Source of the DNA: a virus
Strand: one strand, 5' to 3'
DNA: 22,875 nucleotides
Virus record (IMG/VR): IMGVR_UViG_3300037153_000362
Coordinates: 1-22,875 of that record
Positions 2,541-14,484 of the stretch are shown here, piece after piece (within the stretch, counting starts at the first letter, position 1; each line of letters begins with the position of its first letter). The position numbers and the translations under genes are program-made. Below the pieces are notes generated by a model. That model was not told the DNA's origin. It worked only from the letters and a program-made list of their open reading frames with translations, and ran no database searches.

Positions 2541-2894
2541 ATGGCTGATCTCCCCCAGACGTTCAACCTGAAGGCGTACATGGGGGACTCCTGGTCGAAA
2601 ACGTTCCTGCTGTGGACGGACGGGGCGCCCACCGACCTCACCGGCGCAACCGTCGCCGCGTGGGCGCGAACCTGCGGGAACGGGGCTGCCCCCACCTATC
2701 TTGTCCTGCAGGTGACATTGGGCGTCGACCCGGGGACGGTTGTGCTCGCACCCCCCGCCGGCGGGTTCACCAAACCGGAGATGCTCACCTATGACCTCGA
2801 GGTGACGATGCCCGACGGCACCATCACCACCTGGGTTAGGGGGAGGCTCCAGGTCGACCAGGACGTCACCAACACCGCCGGGGTCACCCCATGA
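2541..2894 (+). CDS. Small beta-rich tail protein (baseplate upper protein-like)
   Basis: A 117-residue protein with a very good ribosome binding site (AAAGGAAGGAG at 2524-2534, 6 bases before ATG). The pattern [12 protein letters not shown], followed by hydrophobic strands and [13 protein letters not shown], resembles the immunoglobulin-like small proteins that accompany phage fibres (BppU N-terminal type). It ends in an ATGA overlap with the collagen-like fibre gene, so the two are probably translated together. It may help attach the fibre to the tail tip. The function is inferred from fold-like patterns and position only. Confidence 0.6.
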
Positions 2895-4273
2895 CCAACG
2901 ACGTAACGCTCGTCGGCACCTCGAGCGGCGACGTCGCCCTCGTCACCAGCGGCGGCAGCGGGCCGCCCGGCCCCCAGGGGCCGCCTGGCCCCACCGGCCC
3001 GCAAGGTCCGGACGGGCCGCCCGGCCCCCCAGGCCCGCAAGGTGATCCCGGCCCCGCCGGCAACACCGGCCCCACCGGGCCGGCCGGCAGCACCGGGCCG
3101 CCCGGCCCCGCCGGCCCTACCGGCAACACCGGCCCCGCCGGCCCCCAGGGGTTAACAGGCCCGCAGGGCACCACTGGCCCCCCCGGCGCCGACGGCGCCC
3201 CCGGCCCCCAAGGCCCACAGGGGCTCACCGGCCCGCAGGGGCCGCAGGGGCTGAAGGGCGACCCCGGCAACACCGGCCCGCAGGGGGCGACCGGGAACAC
3301 CGGCCCCCAGGGCGTGAAAGGCGACCAGGGCGACCCCGGCCCCCAGGGCGCAGCAGGGTCACAAGGCCCGGCCGGCAGCACGGGGGCGCAGGGGCCGCAG
3401 GGTCCCGCCGGCCCCACCGGGAACACCGGCCCGCAGGGTCCCGCCGGCGCCGCGGGTGACAACTGGATCTACGGGACAGGAGCCCCCGGCGTGTCCGCCG
3501 ACCCGGTCGGAACCCTCTACCTCGACGGCGCCACCGGCAACGTGTGGGAACAGCAGGCGGGCGGCTGGGTGTTCACCGGCATCAACCTTAAAGGCCCGAT
3601 CGGCGCCACCGGCTCACAAGGCCCGAAAGGCGACACAGGTGCGGCCGGGTCACAGGGTCCCGCCGGCCCCGGGGTCGCCGCCGGCGGCACCGCCGGCCAG
3701 GTGCTCACCAAGAACACCGCCACCAACTACGACACCGTCTGGGCCACCCCCGTGTCGGGGGGTGGCGCCTACGGTCTAACCCCGCCCGCCACACCCGCTG
3801 ACGGTGACAGGTGGACGCTCCCGATCGCCAACGGGGTGGTGTGGCAGTTCCGTTACAACGCGAGCGGCGGCACCTACAAATGGGAGTTCGTCGGCGGCTC
3901 CGACGCGTACCAAATGGTTGCTGCCGCGGAGGGCACGACCACCCAAGCCACCTGGCTGAACCTCAACACGAACGGGCCGCTCGTCACTGTGCCGCGAGCC
4001 GGCGACTACCTCGTAACCTACGGAGCCAGGGGGTTCCACTCGGTTGTCGGTGGTTCATTCTCAGTGGGTCCAGCCCTCGGCGACACAAGCCCCGCCAACT
4101 GCGCGGTCGGGAATGCGACCGGTGTCAACTACTCGCTGATGCTGCCGATGAAGGTCCTGTTTTCCGGTGTCCCGGCTTCAACGGCGATCAAATTGCGCTA
4201 CTTCATGAGCGTGGCGGGAACCGCGACGTGGGTTGATCGTTGGATCAGCGTGGTGCCCGTGAGAGTGAGCTAA
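2891..4273 (+). CDS. Collagen-like tail fibre with globular C-terminal head
   Basis: The 460-residue protein has a 23-residue leader, then 55 uninterrupted Gly-X-Y triplets (residues 24-188), a non-collagen insert of about 46 residues with WIYGTGAPG and [13 protein letters not shown], and a second block of nine triplets (residues 235-261). Next comes a segment with [20 protein letters not shown], a word I recognise from actinophage tail proteins. The last 110 residues look like a beta jellyroll head ([18 protein letters not shown]). Collagen-like triplets form trimeric stalks, so this is probably a trimeric fibre with a terminal receptor-binding head, similar in layout to C1q. Translation is coupled to the previous gene by ATGA. 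Confidence 0.85.
2960..3454 (+). repeat. Collagen-like Gly-X-Y coding repeat, 55 triplets
   Basis: Nine-base units encode Gly-Pro-X or Gly-X-Y without interruption. Recurring triplets are GPQ, GPA, GNT, GLT and GDP. The extreme GC content and repetition make the antisense strand look like a Gly-Pro-rich ORF too, which is an artefact. A shorter second block of nine triplets lies at 3593-3673. The copy number is likely to vary among relatives and is a place where short-read assembly can collapse. Confidence 0.9.
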
Positions 4274-4288
4274 CAGGAGCATCCGCCC

Positions 4289-5191
4289 ATGACAACGATC
4301 GGGCCACAGGACGGGATCCACGCGAGCATTGAACGCCTCCGCGCGCTCGACCCGGGCGGCACCAAGCCGAACCGCGACCCCAACAACCTCGCCACCTGGG
4401 GGGCGTGGGACAAGCTCGAGCGCACGTTGCAGATCCTGAAGGACACCCACGACGGGGTTGAGTCCAGCCCGCCCGACCCCGAGCCCGAACCCGGGCCGCC
4501 GGATGTGGTCGTCCCCGCCTCCTATGAGTGCGGCGTGTTCATAGCGGGCGGCGCCGGCTCGAACATGAGCGACCCGGACTCGCCGCAAGCCGACACAGGG
4601 CGGGATTACAACGGGAGGCCGTGGAACCCCGACCAGGCGTGCGACGCTATCGCCCGCTCCGGGTACAGGGGCGTCCTGGTGCAGCTGTACCGGGAACAGG
4701 GCGCCGACTACATGGCCTGCGGGAGGGCGCGCGGCCTGCGGGTCGGGTTGTGGGACGCATGGCCGTCCGCCGCCAGGGCCGAGCTCGCGTTGAGTTTCGG
4801 GCCGGACATGTACTGCGCGCAGGCGGAGACGGGGCAGGGGCAGGCGGCGATGGACGCGATCGGGAGGGCGTACGAGATCAACCCGGTCCTCCCGCTCGGC
4901 ATCGTGACGAACATGGAGCCGTCCCGGACCGTGGAGGGGTTCGACATCTTCATGCAGGAACGCGACGTGATCTGCATGCCCGAGGTGTACGCGAACGAGA
5001 ACCCCGAATGGAACCAGAACCCCGTCGGGTTCAAGGATGCCCTGGTCGGCGAATGCCTCGAGCGCGGCTACCTCGGTGTCATCCCCGTGTTCGGCGTCTA
5101 CTGGGGCTGGACGGTCAGCCAGTACGAGCCGGGGGACGAGCCGTTCTACCCGTACCTCGCCGAGGACATGAGCCACGCGGAGCTCGCGTGA
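4289..5191 (+). CDS. TIM-barrel-like protein, possible glycoside hydrolase of the tail or lysis region
   Basis: A 300-residue protein with a ribosome binding site CAGGAG nine bases before ATG. Residues 1-55 are polar and helical, residues 59-74 form a Pro/Glu/Asp linker (PPDPEPEPGPPD), and residues 78-280 show regularly spaced hydrophobic strands: GVFIAGG, GVLVQLY, RVGLWDAW, DMYCAQAE, LGIVTNME, VICMPEVYAN and VIPVFGVYWGW. That spacing fits a (beta/alpha)8 barrel, and acidic residues at strand ends (D156, E180, E210, E232) are candidates for catalysis. It sits between the fibre and the endolysin. It could be a tail-borne polysaccharide or wall hydrolase, or an inactive barrel. I cannot name a family. 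Confidence 0.55.
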   Translation: MTTIGPQDGIHASIERLRALDPGGTKPNRDPNNLATWGAWDKLERTLQILKDTHDGVESSPPDPEPEPGPPDVVVPASYECGVFIAGGAGSNMSDPDSPQADTGRDYNGRPWNPDQACDAIARSGYRGVLVQLYREQGADYMACGRARGLRVGLWDAWPSAARAELALSFGPDMYCAQAETGQGQAAMDAIGRAYEINPVLPLGIVTNMEPSRTVEGFDIFMQERDVICMPEVYANENPEWNQNPVGFKDALVGECLERGYLGVIPVFGVYWGWTVSQYEPGDEPFYPYLAEDMSHAELA

Positions 5192-6526: not shown

Positions 6527-6907
6527 CTAGCTGGAGGCGGTGCGCGGCCAGGCGGGGTCGTCTTCAGCCTCCTGGGTCGCGAGCACCTCGCGCACCAGCA
6601 CTTTCAGTTTCTCGATCTCGGCGAGGATTAACTGCTCCCCTGGTGACAGTGGCGGCGGGCTCTCCTCGACGAGCTCGGCCACCTCGATCCCGAGCACCTG
6701 CGCGATCCGTACGAGCTCCCGCACGGGCGGTAGCTTCCCGCGTTCCCACCGGGACACGCTGCCGGGGCTGACGTTCGCTTCACCGGCGAACACCAGTTGC
6801 GTCCATCCCTTCCGGATCCGCGCCGCGGCGATCCGCCGGCCGACCTCGTCGGGAGCGAACGTCACCAACCCAAGGCTGAACGAAGTTCTCGCTATTTGCG
6901 TCGCCAC
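6527..6907 (-). CDS. Cro/CI-type repressor, probable immunity repressor
   Basis: A 126-residue protein on the minus strand with a classic HTH_3 domain at about residues 23-77. The recognition unit is TQLVFAGEANVSPGSVSRWE and the end of the domain is LVRIAQVLGIEVAELVEE. After a Pro-rich link comes an amphipathic helix (EQLILAEIEKLKVLVREVL) that could dimerise. There is no LexA/CI-type peptidase domain, so induction by RecA-driven self-cleavage is unlikely. It is transcribed away from the Cro-like gene across a 54-bp switch. The listed start is GTG at 6907, which has no ribosome binding site. An internal GTG (residue 15, position 6865) would also leave the HTH intact. Confidence 0.82.
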   Translation of the reverse strand: MATQIARTSFSLGLVTFAPDEVGRRIAAARIRKGWTQLVFAGEANVSPGSVSRWERGKLPPVRELVRIAQVLGIEVAELVEESPPPLSPGEQLILAEIEKLKVLVREVLATQEAEDDPAWPRTASS

Positions 6908-6961: not shown

Positions 6962-7177
6962 ATGGAGCGGCTGGCAAGCAGAATCCGCGCCGCGAGGCTC
7001 GAGGCAGGCCTGTCCCGTGAGCGTCTCGCCGGGAAGGTCGGTTGTTCTCTCACAACGATCGTCCGGTATGAAACCGGCCGCAACCAAGGCGGCTCGCTCT
7101 CGACCCTGGCGAAGATCGCGACAGCGACCGGTAAGCCAATCGCCTGGTTCTTCGAGGACGACGGGGTGGCCGTGTGA
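6962..7177 (+). CDS. Cro-like HTH regulator
   Basis: A 71-residue protein made almost wholly of an HTH_3 domain: IRAARLEAGLSRERLAGKVG, CSLTTIVRYETGR and LSTLAKIATATGKPIAWFF. It is the first gene rightward from the switch and diverges from the repressor, the usual place for Cro. It likely binds the same operator and sets the lytic side of the switch. ATG 6962 has no ribosome binding site and lies about five bases from the predicted transcript start. It is followed by the excisionase-like gene. Confidence 0.8.
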   Translation: MERLASRIRAARLEAGLSRERLAGKVGCSLTTIVRYETGRNQGGSLSTLAKIATATGKPIAWFFEDDGVAV

Positions 7178-7218
7178 TGGCAGTGATGCCGCTACGCGGG
7201 GGGAGGCGACATATTCGC

Positions 7219-7452
7219 ATGGGGATCGAGCGTCACTACAACGGGCACGAGCTGGCTGAGCTGCTGGGCGTCGACTACGAGACGGTGCTGCACATGGCCC
7301 AAACAGGGGAGATCGAGTCTGTCCGGGTCGGCCGGCTGCGCCGGTTCCCGGAGTCGGCCGTGCTCGACTACCTCGACCGTCAGCGTGACAGGAACGTGAT
7401 CCCGCTGCGCCCACGAGATACATCTCCTCCCCGGCGCAAGGAGGCCCGCTAG
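7219..7452 (+). CDS. Excisionase-like MerR-type HTH protein
   Basis: A 77-residue basic protein with a winged-helix domain of the HTH_17/excisionase type: YNGHELAELLGVDYETVLHM, then GEIESVRVGRLRRFPESAVL. The C-terminus is Arg/Pro-rich. It ends directly before the integrase start, the usual place for a recombination directionality factor. I chose ATG 7219 because GGGAGG (7201-7206) lies upstream and the domain begins soon after. GTG 7174, which overlaps the cro stop as GTGA, would add 15 residues and is a real alternative. It could act in excision or transcription. Confidence 0.72.
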   Translation: MGIERHYNGHELAELLGVDYETVLHMAQTGEIESVRVGRLRRFPESAVLDYLDRQRDRNVIPLRPRDTSPPRRKEAR

Positions 7453-8571
7453 ATGTCGATCCGCAAACACGGCCGCACCTTCCAGGTGCGGCTCCCCGGC
7501 GAACGCGCGAGAAGCTTCCCGACCCATGCGGCGGCCGAGAAGTACGAGCTCAACCGCAAGCTCGCGCGTTCGCTCGGGGACCTCCACGCCGAGCCGCCGG
7601 TCACGATCACCGAGATGCTCGACGGGTACCTGCACCGCTGGCAGACGCGGGAACACCCGGCGCCAGGGACCGTCGACCGCGCCCGCGACGCGCTCCGGTT
7701 CCTGCACCGCGAGTTCGGCGGGCTGCTGCTACCGCAACTCGGGCTCGTCCAGGTGGAGGACGCGATCATCGACCGGGCCGTCGAGCACCCGAACGCCGCC
7801 AAGAAGGAGCTCGAGTGGCTGAAGCGCGGTCTCCGCGACGCACGCCGCCGCGGGCAGCGGTTCGACCTGGCGCTCCTCATGATCGACCCGATCCGCGTGG
7901 CGAGCAGGCAGGGTGTCGCGCTCGACGTCGACCAGCTCGACAGGCTCGCGTCCTGGTTCCCGGAGCACTTGGCGGCGATGGCGCCGTTCATGGGGTCGGT
8001 GGGGACACGGATCGGGGAGACGCTCACGCTCACCGACGACCGCGTCGACGTGAAGCGCGGCAGCATCTTCATCCCCGCCGCCCAGTGCAAGGAGAACCGG
8101 GACAAGCTGATCGAGTTGACCGAGGACGAGCGGCAGCTCCTCGCCGAGCAGTTGCTCGCCCGCCCCACGGGGACACCGTTCGTGTTTCCGAGGCTGGGCG
8201 GCGGCCGCCACCACGCCGGCCCCTACGACGACCACTCCTACTTCTACGAGAAGGTGTGGCACCCGGCCCGCAAGGGCGCGGCGATGGAATGGCGGCAGGA
8301 GCGCGGCCTCCCCCATGGGGCGGCCACCGTGTTCGACCGGCTCGTCCCCCACGACCTCCGCCACACCGCCATCAGCCTGATGGCCGCCGGCGGGATGCGC
8401 CCCGAGACGGTCGCCGCCAGGGTCGGCCACAAGGATGGCGGCAAGCTGATCCTCGACCGGTACCGGCACCTGTTCCCCGACGAGATGCGCGTCCACCTCG
8501 ACCGGTACGAGACCTACCTCCGCGACCGCCGCGACACGAAGCGGCAGGAGGCAGGCGAAGCGGCCCGGTGA
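7453..8571 (+). CDS. int: Tyrosine integrase
   Basis: A 372-residue tyrosine recombinase that would join attP to the host attB. Catalytic residues are visible: R186 in GTRIGETL, a candidate K213 in QCKENRDKL, H300 and R303 in HDLRHT, H326 in VGHKDGGK, and nucleophile Y337 in DRYRHL. Residues 1-45 form a small basic domain (MSIRKHGRTFQVRLPG) likely to bind arm sites, and residues 50-145 fit a SAM-like core-binding domain. It starts directly after the excisionase-like gene with AAGGAGG eight bases before ATG. The attP region lies less than 200 bp downstream. Confidence 0.93.
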   Translation: MSIRKHGRTFQVRLPGERARSFPTHAAAEKYELNRKLARSLGDLHAEPPVTITEMLDGYLHRWQTREHPAPGTVDRARDALRFLHREFGGLLLPQLGLVQVEDAIIDRAVEHPNAAKKELEWLKRGLRDARRRGQRFDLALLMIDPIRVASRQGVALDVDQLDRLASWFPEHLAAMAPFMGSVGTRIGETLTLTDDRVDVKRGSIFIPAAQCKENRDKLIELTEDERQLLAEQLLARPTGTPFVFPRLGGGRHHAGPYDDHSYFYEKVWHPARKGAAMEWRQERGLPHGAATVFDRLVPHDLRHTAISLMAAGGMRPETVAARVGHKDGGKLILDRYRHLFPDEMRVHLDRYETYLRDRRDTKRQEAGEAAR

Positions 8572-8708
8572 ACGGCTGGGTGCTCATCGCGCTCGCCGCG
8601 CTCGCGGGCTGGGCCACGGCGAGCGGACTGTTCCTGCTCTGGCTCATCCTCCCCCGTCGCCGCCATGGCGACGTCGCCGAGATCGAGCGTCTGGTGCGCC
8701 GCCGATGA
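8568..8708 (+). CDS. Small single-helix membrane protein
   Basis: A 46-residue protein starting with GTG in a GTGA overlap with int. Residues 2-28 form one hydrophobic helix (VLIALAALAGWATASGLFLL), followed by a basic tail, ILPRRRHGD...ERLVRRR. The topology predicts a cytoplasmic positive tail. It sits between int and attP, so in a lysogen it would be the last phage gene before the junction. The role is unknown. Superinfection exclusion is one possibility, from context only. Confidence 0.6.
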   Translation: MNGWVLIALAALAGWATASGLFLLWLILPRRRHGDVAEIERLVRRR

Positions 8709-8744: not shown

Positions 8745-8771
8745 TCTCATGTGGACAGGAGAAGGACAAGC
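8745..8771 (+). repeat. attP arm-type repeat A, copy 1
   Basis: A 27-bp unit begins TCTCATGTGGACAGGA and ends GGACAAGC. It matches copy 2 at 8979-9005 in 25 of 27 bases. Each copy contains two GGACA words about 11 bp apart, like tandem integrase arm sites. The word TGTGGACAG is also one base from the actinobacterial DnaA box TGTGGACAA, an alternative reading. Confidence 0.65.
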
Positions 8772-8824
8772 CGCTCGCGTCGGGAACGCGGACTGCGCCG
8801 CAAACCCGTATGGTTAAGCGGATT

Positions 8825-8868
8825 GGCGGGGTGCCGGAGTGGTCGAACGGGACGGTCTTGAAAGCCCT
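8825..8868 (+). other. Partial tRNA-Ser(TGA): 5' half, likely attP core
   Basis: The bases can be laid out as a class II tRNA: acceptor 5' strand GGCGGGG (8825-8831), TG, D-arm CCGGAGTGGTCGAACGGG, anticodon stem ACGGT (8852-8856), loop CTTGAAA (8857-8863) with anticodon TGA (8859-8861), then GCCCT. The 3' stem has one mismatch (C28-C42), and no variable arm, T-arm or acceptor 3' strand follows. Similarity to tRNA thus ends a few bases after the anticodon. A -10-like TATGGT lies at 8809-8814, without a clear -35. Confidence 0.7.
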
Positions 8869-8875
8869 TAGACGC

Positions 8876-8903
8876 CGAACACGCCCCGACACGCTCCGAC
8901 ACG
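8876..8903 (+). repeat. attP repeat B, copy 1
   Basis: A 28-bp unit built of three CGA(A/C)ACG-type words with a 10-bp step (CGAACACG, CCGACACG, CCGACACG). It matches 8949-8976 in 25 of 28 bases. The 10-bp step places the words on one face of the helix, suggesting cooperative binding by integrase or excisionase. Confidence 0.6.
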
Positions 8904-8948
8904 ATACCACCCGTTTTGCAGGGATTTCGTGGTGGGCGCTCACCGGCT

Positions 8949-8976
8949 CGAACACGCCCGGACACGCTGGGACACG
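8949..8976 (+). repeat. attP repeat B, copy 2
   Basis: Second copy of the 28-bp unit. The three differences from 8876-8903 are all C to G within the words (CGGACACG, GGGACACG). It is followed after two bases by repeat A copy 2. Confidence 0.6.
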
Positions 8977-8978
8977 GT

Positions 8979-9005
8979 TCTCATGTGGACAGGAAATGGA
9001 CAAGC
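8979..9005 (+). repeat. attP arm-type repeat A, copy 2
   Basis: Second copy of the 27-bp unit, differing from 8745-8771 at two positions in the centre (AAT in place of GAA). The two copies lie on either side of the tRNA-like core in the same orientation, as expected for P and P' arms. Confidence 0.65.
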
Positions 9006-12559: not shown

Positions 12560-12711
12560 ACCCTCATCGTCGTCGCCGCCAGCCCCCTGTCCATACCCCA
12601 GACGGGGGGGTCGGTTTTTGGGGCGACCGGTGACTCCGCTGCGGCCGCAGACGGAAAAACCCCCCTGCTGGGCGACCGGTGCGGGGCCTGGGTGAGGGGG
12701 GCGGGGTTGGG
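12560..12711. other. Non-coding gap before terminase: repeats, palindrome, cos/pac candidate
   Basis: The gap holds a 12-bp direct repeat GGGCGACCGGTG (12621-12632 and 12670-12681, 49 bp apart), a 12-bp palindrome CTGCGGCCGCAG (12639-12650) between the copies, and an inverted pair GGTTTTT (12613-12619) and AAAAACC (12655-12661) next to runs of G and C. Packaging sites often lie just upstream of terminase genes and contain such repeats. The inverted pair could instead be a bidirectional terminator. I see no clear promoter for either flanking gene. Confidence 0.4.
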
Positions 12712-14484
12712 GTGACTGCGCGCGTGTATGGGCGAGTTGGGGGGATCGGGTCGACGGCGGCCAGGGGGTATGGGGCGAAGCATCAGGCGAAACGCGCCCA
12801 GTTGGAGCCGCTGGTTCTGGCTGGGGGTGCGTCTTGTGTCCGGTGCGGCGGCCTGATTCTGCCGGGGGAGCCGTGGGACCTCGGGCATGTTGATGGTGAC
12901 AAGACACGGTATGCGGGGCCGGAGCACCGGTGGTGTAACCGGGGGTGGCATCGGAAGGGGCAGCTCGCCCAGTCGCCGCCGGCGAAGCAGGTGGTGGCGG
13001 AGCCGGTGGGGCTGCCCGCGAACGATCCGCGGTGGCGTGTCCCGTGGCTGCGGGGGCTGCGGCGGCCGCCCAGGGATGCGACGTGGCCCAGGTTGATGAC
13101 GGTGCCGCACCCGGACGCGACCGGGTCGCTCGGCCGGGTGTTCATCGGGTGGGCGGAGGAGCGGGAGGGGCGGCGGCTCCGCTGGTGGCAGCGGCTGGTC
13201 GCGACGCGGCTGCTTGAGCATGACGGGGACGACAGGCTGGTGTGGGACGCGCTGATCCTGAGCATGGCCCGCCAGCTCGGCAAATCGTGGCTGCTCCGCG
13301 AGCTGCTTCTTTGGCGGATTCATCAGGGCGACCGGTTCGGGGAGCCGCAGGACGTTTTGCATACGGGGAAGGACATCGCGATCTGCAAGGAGGTGCAGCG
13401 GACAGCCCGGATCTGGTGCCGTCAGCGGCCCAGGGAGTACAAGGTGACGGAGGTGAACGGGCAGGAGGCGATCGAGTGGCTGGGTGACCGGTCGAGGTGG
13501 ATGATCCGCGCCCGCGGCGCCGTGTACGGGTACTCGGTGAGCCTAGGCGCGGTGGATGAGGGGTGGAAGGTCGACGAACAGGTCGTCAGCGAGGGGCTCG
13601 CCCCGACGATGGTCGAGCGGGCGCAGCCGCAGCTGCTGCTGGTGTCGACCGCGCACCGGCTCGCCACCCCGTTGATGGTCGACCGGCGCCGCGCCGCGCT
13701 CGCCGAGCTCGAGACCGGCGACGGCGACCTCCTGATCGAATGGAGTGCTCCCAGGGACGCGCACCTCGAGGACCGCACCGGGTGGCGATTGGCCAGTCCG
13801 CATTGGACGCCGCAACGCGAGAAGCTCGTCGCGCAGCAATTGGCGAACGCCCGCGCCGGCGGCACCCTGGACCCGGACGAGCCCGACCCGGTCGAAGGCT
13901 TCCGGTCGCAGTGGCTGAATCAGTGGCCGGAACAGGCGGCGGTCAAGCTGGACGGGGAGGAGCTGCTCCCACCCGGCGTCTGGGCATCACTAGCCGGTGA
14001 CGTGGACGCGACCGGGCCGATGTGGCTCGCCGTCGAGGACAACTGGGGGAAGGGGGCGGCGGTCGCCGCCGTGTGCCTGCTCCCAGACGGGCAACTCGAG
14101 GTCGACGGGTGGGTGTACGACGACTGGGACAGCGCGATCCTCGACGTCGAACACTTGGCCGGCTACTGGGACGTCACCCAGATCCTGGTGGGCGCCAACC
14201 TGTTGTCGCGTGTCCCGTTGGAGATGCTGCCGACCCCGGAGCCGTCCGGGATCAAAGAGACCCGGACGGGGCTCCCACTGTTCCGCGACCTGGCCGCGAA
14301 CAGGGTCATCGTGCATCACAAGCCGGCGCAGGAGCTCACCGCTGCCGTCGAACAAGCCCGCGTCCGTGAGGGCATCAACGGGATGACGCTGATCCCCATG
14401 TACGGTCACCCCCATCTGGTGAAAGCACTCGTGTGGGCTGTGAACGCTGCGCATCAGCCGGCACCGACCCCGGCGATCTACTAG
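12712..14484 (+). CDS. Terminase large subunit with N-terminal HNH nuclease-like fusion
   Basis: A 590-residue protein counted from GTG 12712 (an in-frame GTG at 12679 is possible). Residues 42-76 hold an HNH pattern: CVRCG (C42, C45), WDLGHVDGD (D56, H59) and GPEHRWCN (H72, C75, N76). The terminase ATPase follows: Walker A-like SMARQLGKS (184-192) and Walker B-like VSLGAVDE (D282, E283). An RNase H-type nuclease domain then begins near LAVEDNWGKG (E442/D443). The enzyme cuts and pumps DNA into the prohead. HNH proteins are usually separate genes beside the terminase, so the fusion is unusual. No small terminase subunit is seen. Confidence 0.85.
   Translation: MTARVYGRVGGIGSTAARGYGAKHQAKRAQLEPLVLAGGASCVRCGGLILPGEPWDLGHVDGDKTRYAGPEHRWCNRGWHRKGQLAQSPPAKQVVAEPVGLPANDPRWRVPWLRGLRRPPRDATWPRLMTVPHPDATGSLGRVFIGWAEEREGRRLRWWQRLVATRLLEHDGDDRLVWDALILSMARQLGKSWLLRELLLWRIHQGDRFGEPQDVLHTGKDIAICKEVQRTARIWCRQRPREYKVTEVNGQEAIEWLGDRSRWMIRARGAVYGYSVSLGAVDEGWKVDEQVVSEGLAPTMVERAQPQLLLVSTAHRLATPLMVDRRRAALAELETGDGDLLIEWSAPRDAHLEDRTGWRLASPHWTPQREKLVAQQLANARAGGTLDPDEPDPVEGFRSQWLNQWPEQAAVKLDGEELLPPGVWASLAGDVDATGPMWLAVEDNWGKGAAVAAVCLLPDGQLEVDGWVYDDWDSAILDVEHLAGYWDVTQILVGANLLSRVPLEMLPTPEPSGIKETRTGLPLFRDLAANRVIVHHKPAQELTAAVEQARVREGINGMTLIPMYGHPHLVKALVWAVNAAHQPAPTPAIY

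Follow-up and report, generated by a model that had tools for sequence, protein, structure and literature searches.

The window, by which we mean the whole stretch of DNA analyzed here, is the full length (22,875 bases) of IMG/VR virus record IMGVR_UViG_3300037153_000362, and it encodes portal, capsid, terminase, endolysin, and RecT-like genes. Its lysogeny module consists of an HTH repressor, a cro-like gene, an HTH_17 excisionase-like gene, and a tyrosine integrase gene, int (Table 1). The predicted integrase of the attachment module possesses the R, HxxR, H, and Y catalytic residues (R186, HxxR at 300-303, H326, and Y337), which were invariant across five aligned sequences. When the integrase was used to search INPHARED, the only match was to the integrase of Gordonia phage Schmidt, over a stretch with 29% identity. 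Elsewhere in the window, the ORF at 12679-14484 matched an HNH endonuclease (residues 25-93) and a terminase large subunit (residues 136-568), i.e., an HNH-terminase fusion, and positions 2891-4273, in the tail gene region, encode a protein with collagen-like GPP/GPQ repeats. A small ORF with a hydrophobic stretch, NGWVLIALAALAGWATASGLFLLWLI, is located at 8568-8708 between int and the attachment site, with a similar reading in the related phages L008 and L010.

Table 1 Features of the lysogeny module and the putative attachment site in the window
Feature	Coordinates	Strand	Evidence or remark
Probable lysogeny repressor (HTH_3)	6527..6907	-	PF01381 E 2.8e-12; phrog_8, phrog_3
cro-like gene	6962-7177		Divergent from HTH_3 repressor; part of lysogeny module
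Probable excisionase/RDF (HTH_17)	7174..7452	+	PF12728 E 1.7e-10; phrog_66 excisionase E 3.3e-5; directly upstream of int
Tyrosine integrase gene (int), 372 aa	7453..8571	+	PF00589 E 3.3e-14; phrog_1 integrase E 1.2e-38
P-arm putative integrase arm-type site, GTGGACAGGAGAAGGAC	8751..8767	+	Direct repeat of 8985-9001; same position in L004, L008, L010
-10-like TATGGT, candidate promoter of reconstituted tRNA	8809..8814	+	TANNNT ending 10 nt before G1
5' half of tRNA-Ser(UGA), nt 1-39, attP identity block	8825..8863	+	E 1.7e-15 match to host tRNA-Ser(tga)
CTTGAAA anticodon loop, inferred 7-bp overlap (crossover) region	8857..8863	+	Last block fully shared in Ser phages
P'-arm (C/G)NACACG(C/A) repeats	8876..8967	+	Repeat family D1, motif list
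P'-arm putative integrase arm-type site, GTGGACAGGAAATGGAC	8985..9001	+	Near-identical repeat of 8751-8767

Downstream of int, a comparison of 138 host-locus tRNA genes with the whole window by blastn revealed 97% identity between positions 8825-8863 and nt 1-39 of tRNA-Ser(UGA) (E 1.7e-15), with the half beginning 253 bp past the end of int (int ends at 8571, and the core starts at 8825). The second-best tRNA match anywhere in the window covered 15 nt (E 0.001). An earlier note on this DNA had claimed that the attP carries the 5' rather than the 3' half of tRNA-Ser(TGA), with similarity extending from the acceptor 5' end to just past the anticodon; both statements held, as the window contained one serious match and its limit was the end of the anticodon loop (8863). 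The exception is the CC of the 3' stem, for GCC at 8864-8866 may provide two further nucleotides of the 3' anticodon stem. The block extends from tRNA nt 1 as far as the presumed crossover and does not reach the 3' end, and the tRNA 3' half that is carried by a classical tRNA attP had no blastn match among host tRNA genes in the attP region and no comparable match elsewhere in the window. Nor did these searches detect a shared core at another position of the window, an outcome that the earlier note had listed as grounds for abandoning its proposal. ARAGORN and Rfam reported no tRNAs in the window, a record that may be incomplete. The succession of P arm, core, and P' arm at 8751-9001 is the layout of a lambda-like attP, and we name the site by this context; the arm-type repeats that flank the core are putative integrase-binding sites.

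Integrase searches of IMG/VR yielded L003 (76% identity), L008 and L010 (69%), L009 (65%), and L004, the int of which has lost an internal stretch. L003 carries nt 1-42 of tRNA-Ser(UGA), identical to host genes and ending 3 nt past the loop, and the remaining four phages carry 5' halves of tRNA-Sec that have the same limits and the loop counterpart CTTCAAA. The L009 half scored 34.5 bits with Rfam RF01852 (under the gathering score of 47), whereas those of L004, L008, and L010 were identified through their match to host tRNA-Sec genes; the first 25 nt were identical to host tRNA-Sec genes in three of these four phages. In all six phages the similarity begins at G1, fades a few nucleotides past the anticodon loop, and is bordered on both sides by paired arm repeats, so the polarity seen in the window is kept in all five relatives. 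The whole attP cassette of L003 (P arm, tRNA-Ser 5' half, and P' arm; 4400-4720, minus strand) is inverted relative to int when compared with the window, and inverted attP sites are also present in phages Omega and Gaia (PMC10865867). A pattern search of IMG/VR contigs with the tRNA-Sec block recovered exactly L004, L008, L009, and L010. The corresponding search with core letters near those of the window gave no match in IMG/VR, and a looser pattern found only the contig of L003 along with two complete tRNA-Ser genes in unrelated contigs. At L004:2949-3386, the integrase gene is without a large internal part and its frame is changed; the attP is nonetheless intact.

A 42-nt pattern that accommodates the blocks of both Ser phages matched 30 genome contigs, all from actinobacterial MAGs, and those named more closely were Gaiellaceae or Thermoleophilia. 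The letters of L003 were present in 29 of the 30 contigs. A complete tRNA-Ser(UGA) gene was likewise found in 29; the remaining one was cut by the locus end, with the complete gene in L115. Among 129 Gaiellales genomes searched, the tRNA-Ser genes nearest to the 39-nt half of the window (G004 and G287) differed from it by 1 nt, which bears out the expectation that the half would align with tRNA-Ser genes of candidate hosts, and 34 genomes possessed tRNA-Sec genes close to the phage halves. The genomes searched contained no intact prophage of the integrase clade, and the GTDB genome contigs contained no relative. In G320, a distant integrase fragment (L035:2-631) faces the tRNA-Ser(UGA) 3' end, and the same tRNA gene thus appears to host a classical 3'-type element; this locus (L035/L136) was set aside because its geometry is classical.

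Hybrid genes were constructed in silico by fusing phage sequence up to and including the anticodon loop to the host sequence that follows it, and they were scored by ARAGORN. The program called tRNA-Ser(tga) in all 30 host hybrids, with the half of the window as well as with that of L003, and tRNA-SeC in 25-28 of 29 host hybrids made with the Sec phage halves, whereas the window attP alone yielded no tRNA. The phage 5' half and the host 3' half are thus predicted to form a complete tRNA. The core of a lambda-type integrase needs far fewer bases than a whole tRNA 5' half, and selection for a functional hybrid tRNA is therefore the best explanation of identity over the entire half. Our best explanation is that 8751-9001 forms the attP of a temperate phage of soil bacteria, the Gaiellales, with the crossover and the rebuilt tRNA set out next, and we assign this joint explanation a probability of about 0.85.

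According to the mechanism that we propose, the tyrosine integrase would act on the host tRNA-Ser(UGA) gene within its anticodon loop, CTTGAAA, this being the presumed crossover position. The phage would contribute nt 1-39 of the tRNA together with the phage DNA upstream of them, and integration would consequently leave the host promoter and the original 5' half stranded at one end of the prophage, while a complete tRNA composed of phage 5' half and host 3' half would be rebuilt at the other end. In the predicted lysogen, transcription of the rebuilt tRNA would have to be initiated from phage DNA, and the likeliest place is the -10-like TATGGT of the P arm, a putative promoter. The earlier proposal that integration replaces the host 5' half is supported both by the hybrid tRNAs and by Gaiellales loci, described below, with displaced 5' halves upstream of complete tRNAs. 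On integration, phage DNA very probably takes the place of the 5' half and promoter of an essential host tRNA-Ser gene, and serine decoding by the host would then depend on the prophage. Part of the tRNA comes from the phage in classical 3'-half prophages too, so it is the promoter swap that is special.

The earlier note had placed TATGGT 11 bases upstream of the half; the hexamer was confirmed, and the distance was corrected to 10 nt before G1. TANNNT ended 5-11 nt before G1 in 49 of 61 host tRNA-Ser/Sec genes, compared to 0 and 1 of 61 in control windows further upstream, and its chance rate in phage DNA was ∼0.4-0.6% per 7-nt window. L003 has TAGTTT 9 nt before G1. Because a -10-like element lies at host-like spacing in both Ser phages, their P arm is likely to supply transcription of the rebuilt tRNA. 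TANNNT at the host spacing was present in only these two of the six phages and absent from the four Sec phages. At 8 nt before G1, L008 and L010 have CAAAAT and L004 has GAAAAT, sequences that loosely resemble the (C/G)ACAAT of six host tRNA-Ser genes; L009 has neither. On the element side of the tRNA-Sec genes of G231 and G209, TAGGCT and TACGCT occur at 6. An alternative that accepts 5'-half integration is that the rebuilt tRNA is read through from int or other phage genes rather than transcribed from a P-arm promoter. The int of the window does read toward the tRNA half, as had been noted, the Sec phages are without TANNNT in the right place, and a sigma-70 consensus scan found no promoter, although such a generic scan is uninformative in high-GC DNA. 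The host tRNA genes themselves show only a -10 element, so the missing -35 carries no weight, and the cassette of L003 is inverted relative to int, yet retains TAGTTT at the host-like distance. The int of L003 is directed away from the tRNA, which rules out read-through from int as a general solution, and we regard read-through as rather unlikely.

The predicted product of integration is a displaced host 5' half, an element, and a complete tRNA. We observed this arrangement in G231, G209, and G030, in each case as a remnant, with breakpoints at or just past the anticodon-loop crossover block; none contained a prophage of this integrase clade. Contig G231:C123 has a tRNA-Sec 5' half, followed by the arm repeat GTAGACGAGAAGTAGAC 117 nt past the core (119 nt in L008), a 46-aa integrase-like C-terminus with no Pfam match, an RHH/DUF5615 pair, a second arm repeat, GTAGACGAGAGGTAGAC, and a tRNA-Sec gene cut by the contig end. 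Two or more repeats of this type occurred in 20 of 200 shuffles when 3 mismatches were allowed; the two observed were exact and in the right places. The RHH_5-like and DUF5615 genes (L142:150-1516) lie between the integrase-like remnant and the attachment site and form a probable toxin-antitoxin pair. In G209:C153, selB is followed 24 nt on by the displaced half and, after 2.6 kb, by a complete tRNA-SeC gene; selB is directly followed by tRNA-Sec in several relatives, which represents the empty layout. The host flank in G030 is syntenic with G134 exactly to GGTCTT; the next 110 bp differ, and a complete tRNA-Ser gene is located 145 bp on.

Such loci could also be local duplications of tRNA 5' halves that are unrelated to integration. 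A half in G255 has the same 19 nt upstream as the complete gene and looks like just such a duplication; we set it aside as an occupied site, and it makes short scars alone ambiguous. The repeat scan detected no arm sites in G209, and upstream synteny at the G231 site was uninformative. Against duplication, the two tRNA-Sec copies of G231 have different upstream sequences and enclose two arm-type repeats at phage-like distances with the integrase-like C-terminus between them, and the foreign stretch of G030 starts exactly at the crossover. We therefore consider local duplication an improbable source of these loci. Because no intact prophage of the clade was found, the remnants are attributed to 5'-type integration by their architecture, most strongly for G231, and are supportive of the model. 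After the displaced tRNA-Ser halves at L144:930-1025 (G255) and L113:1390-1435 (G030) there is in both cases a stretch resembling a hairpin, GGAACCCTTGGTT, and CCCCCTCCTT, which may represent a repeat or a terminator.

tRNA genes are found in many actinophages, and the match in the window is gene-oriented with a -10-like hexamer upstream, features that would also fit the remains of a phage-borne tRNA-Ser gene, or a tRNA fragment serving some other purpose (a decoy, for example), rather than an attachment site. Decay would not end at the same nucleotide, and the five relatives keep the limits from nt 1 to just past the loop, four of them use tRNA-Sec in the same place, arm repeats surround the half in every phage, and the 5' half matches the host gene perfectly or almost perfectly with the 3' half absent, making this explanation very improbable. 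Also very improbable is tRNA-dependent lysogeny of the Fionnbharth type, known in actinobacteriophages (PMC10865867), in which a short core breaks the host tRNA, a separate phage tRNA complements the loss, and the 5' similarity would be incidental: the core shared on the 3' side of the loop is indeed short here, but the window, although possibly an incomplete record, encodes no complete tRNA of the disrupted isotype or any other tRNA gene, and the Fionnbharth core of about 10 bp without tRNA reconstruction (PMC10865867) stands against a 39-42-nt block and a tRNA predicted in 30 of 30 hosts. The two systems share an effect on an essential host tRNA (PMC10865867); in Fionnbharth lysogens the host tRNA is not rebuilt and is complemented by a phage tRNA gene, whereas here it is rebuilt in silico.

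Integration with 5'-half polarity is rare and already known. Of the 3919 islands in Islander, 3760 have a 3' and 159 a 5' tDNA fragment (PMC4383910). As proposed here, the 5' islands displace a 5' tRNA fragment and have a complete tRNA downstream, and the anticodon loop is a known crossover subsite (PMC4383910). Islander describes integrated islands in sequenced genomes, whereas the present case concerns a clade of phages infecting uncultured Gaiellales, in which 5' polarity is conserved although two different tRNAs are used. The archaeal plasmid pTN3 of Thermococcus nautili shares 41 bp with a tRNA-Leu gene, which is cut off from its promoter when rebuilt (PMC5495485); the shared part is the 5' half, a situation seldom encountered in bacteria (review PMC8371274). 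The attP of pTN3-like integrases thus resembles ours in carrying a tRNA 5' half and, as predicted for our site, in leaving the rebuilt tRNA apart from the original promoter (PMC5495485, PMC8371274). Their integrase gene itself contains attP and is split when the element integrates, in contrast to the separate int described here (ending at 8571, before the core begins at 8825) and the lambda-like attP of about 250 bp, with its core between two arms. Classical actinobacteriophage systems likewise use a tyrosine integrase, a core with arm-type sites, and a tRNA rebuilt at one junction; the stretch common to the phage and bacterial sites is typically 30-45 bp long and takes in the tRNA 3' half, which is the opposite polarity (PMC10865867). 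Given the Islander and pTN3 precedents, the finding belongs to a rare known kind rather than a new one.

In a maximum-likelihood tree, the five 5'-half integrases formed one group (100/100), separate from eight integrases facing a complete tRNA (Val, Glu, Ala, or Gly) from its 3' side, the classical geometry; the 3' label of these eight was assigned by geometry, not from displaced fragments, and L050 was left unlabelled for want of a nearby tRNA. The Gaiellales and Thermoleophilia genomes searched contained only 31-47% identical integrase relatives with 3'-type geometry. Because these more distant integrases face the tRNA 3' side, 5' polarity marks the 65-76% identical clade, whereas the 31-47% identical relatives look 3'-type. 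We tentatively suggest, as a possible but doubtful scenario, that the clade switched from 3'-half to 5'-half integration and kept the new polarity across the change between Ser and Sec targets, such that in a lysogen an essential or recoding tRNA would exchange its promoter for one located within the integrase-binding arm of the phage.

Prophages in tRNA genes are usually viewed as leaving the host promoter in place, and a clade of reverse polarity would be a natural experiment in promoter replacement at a tRNA gene that the host cannot do without. The integrase tree permits study of the polarity switch, and this group of phages gains a host assignment. The combination of a tRNA 5' half with paired arm sites also provides a search signature, one that may escape searches designed around 3' fragments. 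If the polarity switch and promoter swap did take place, the tRNA supply of a lysogen could respond to integrase, excisionase, or phage regulation.
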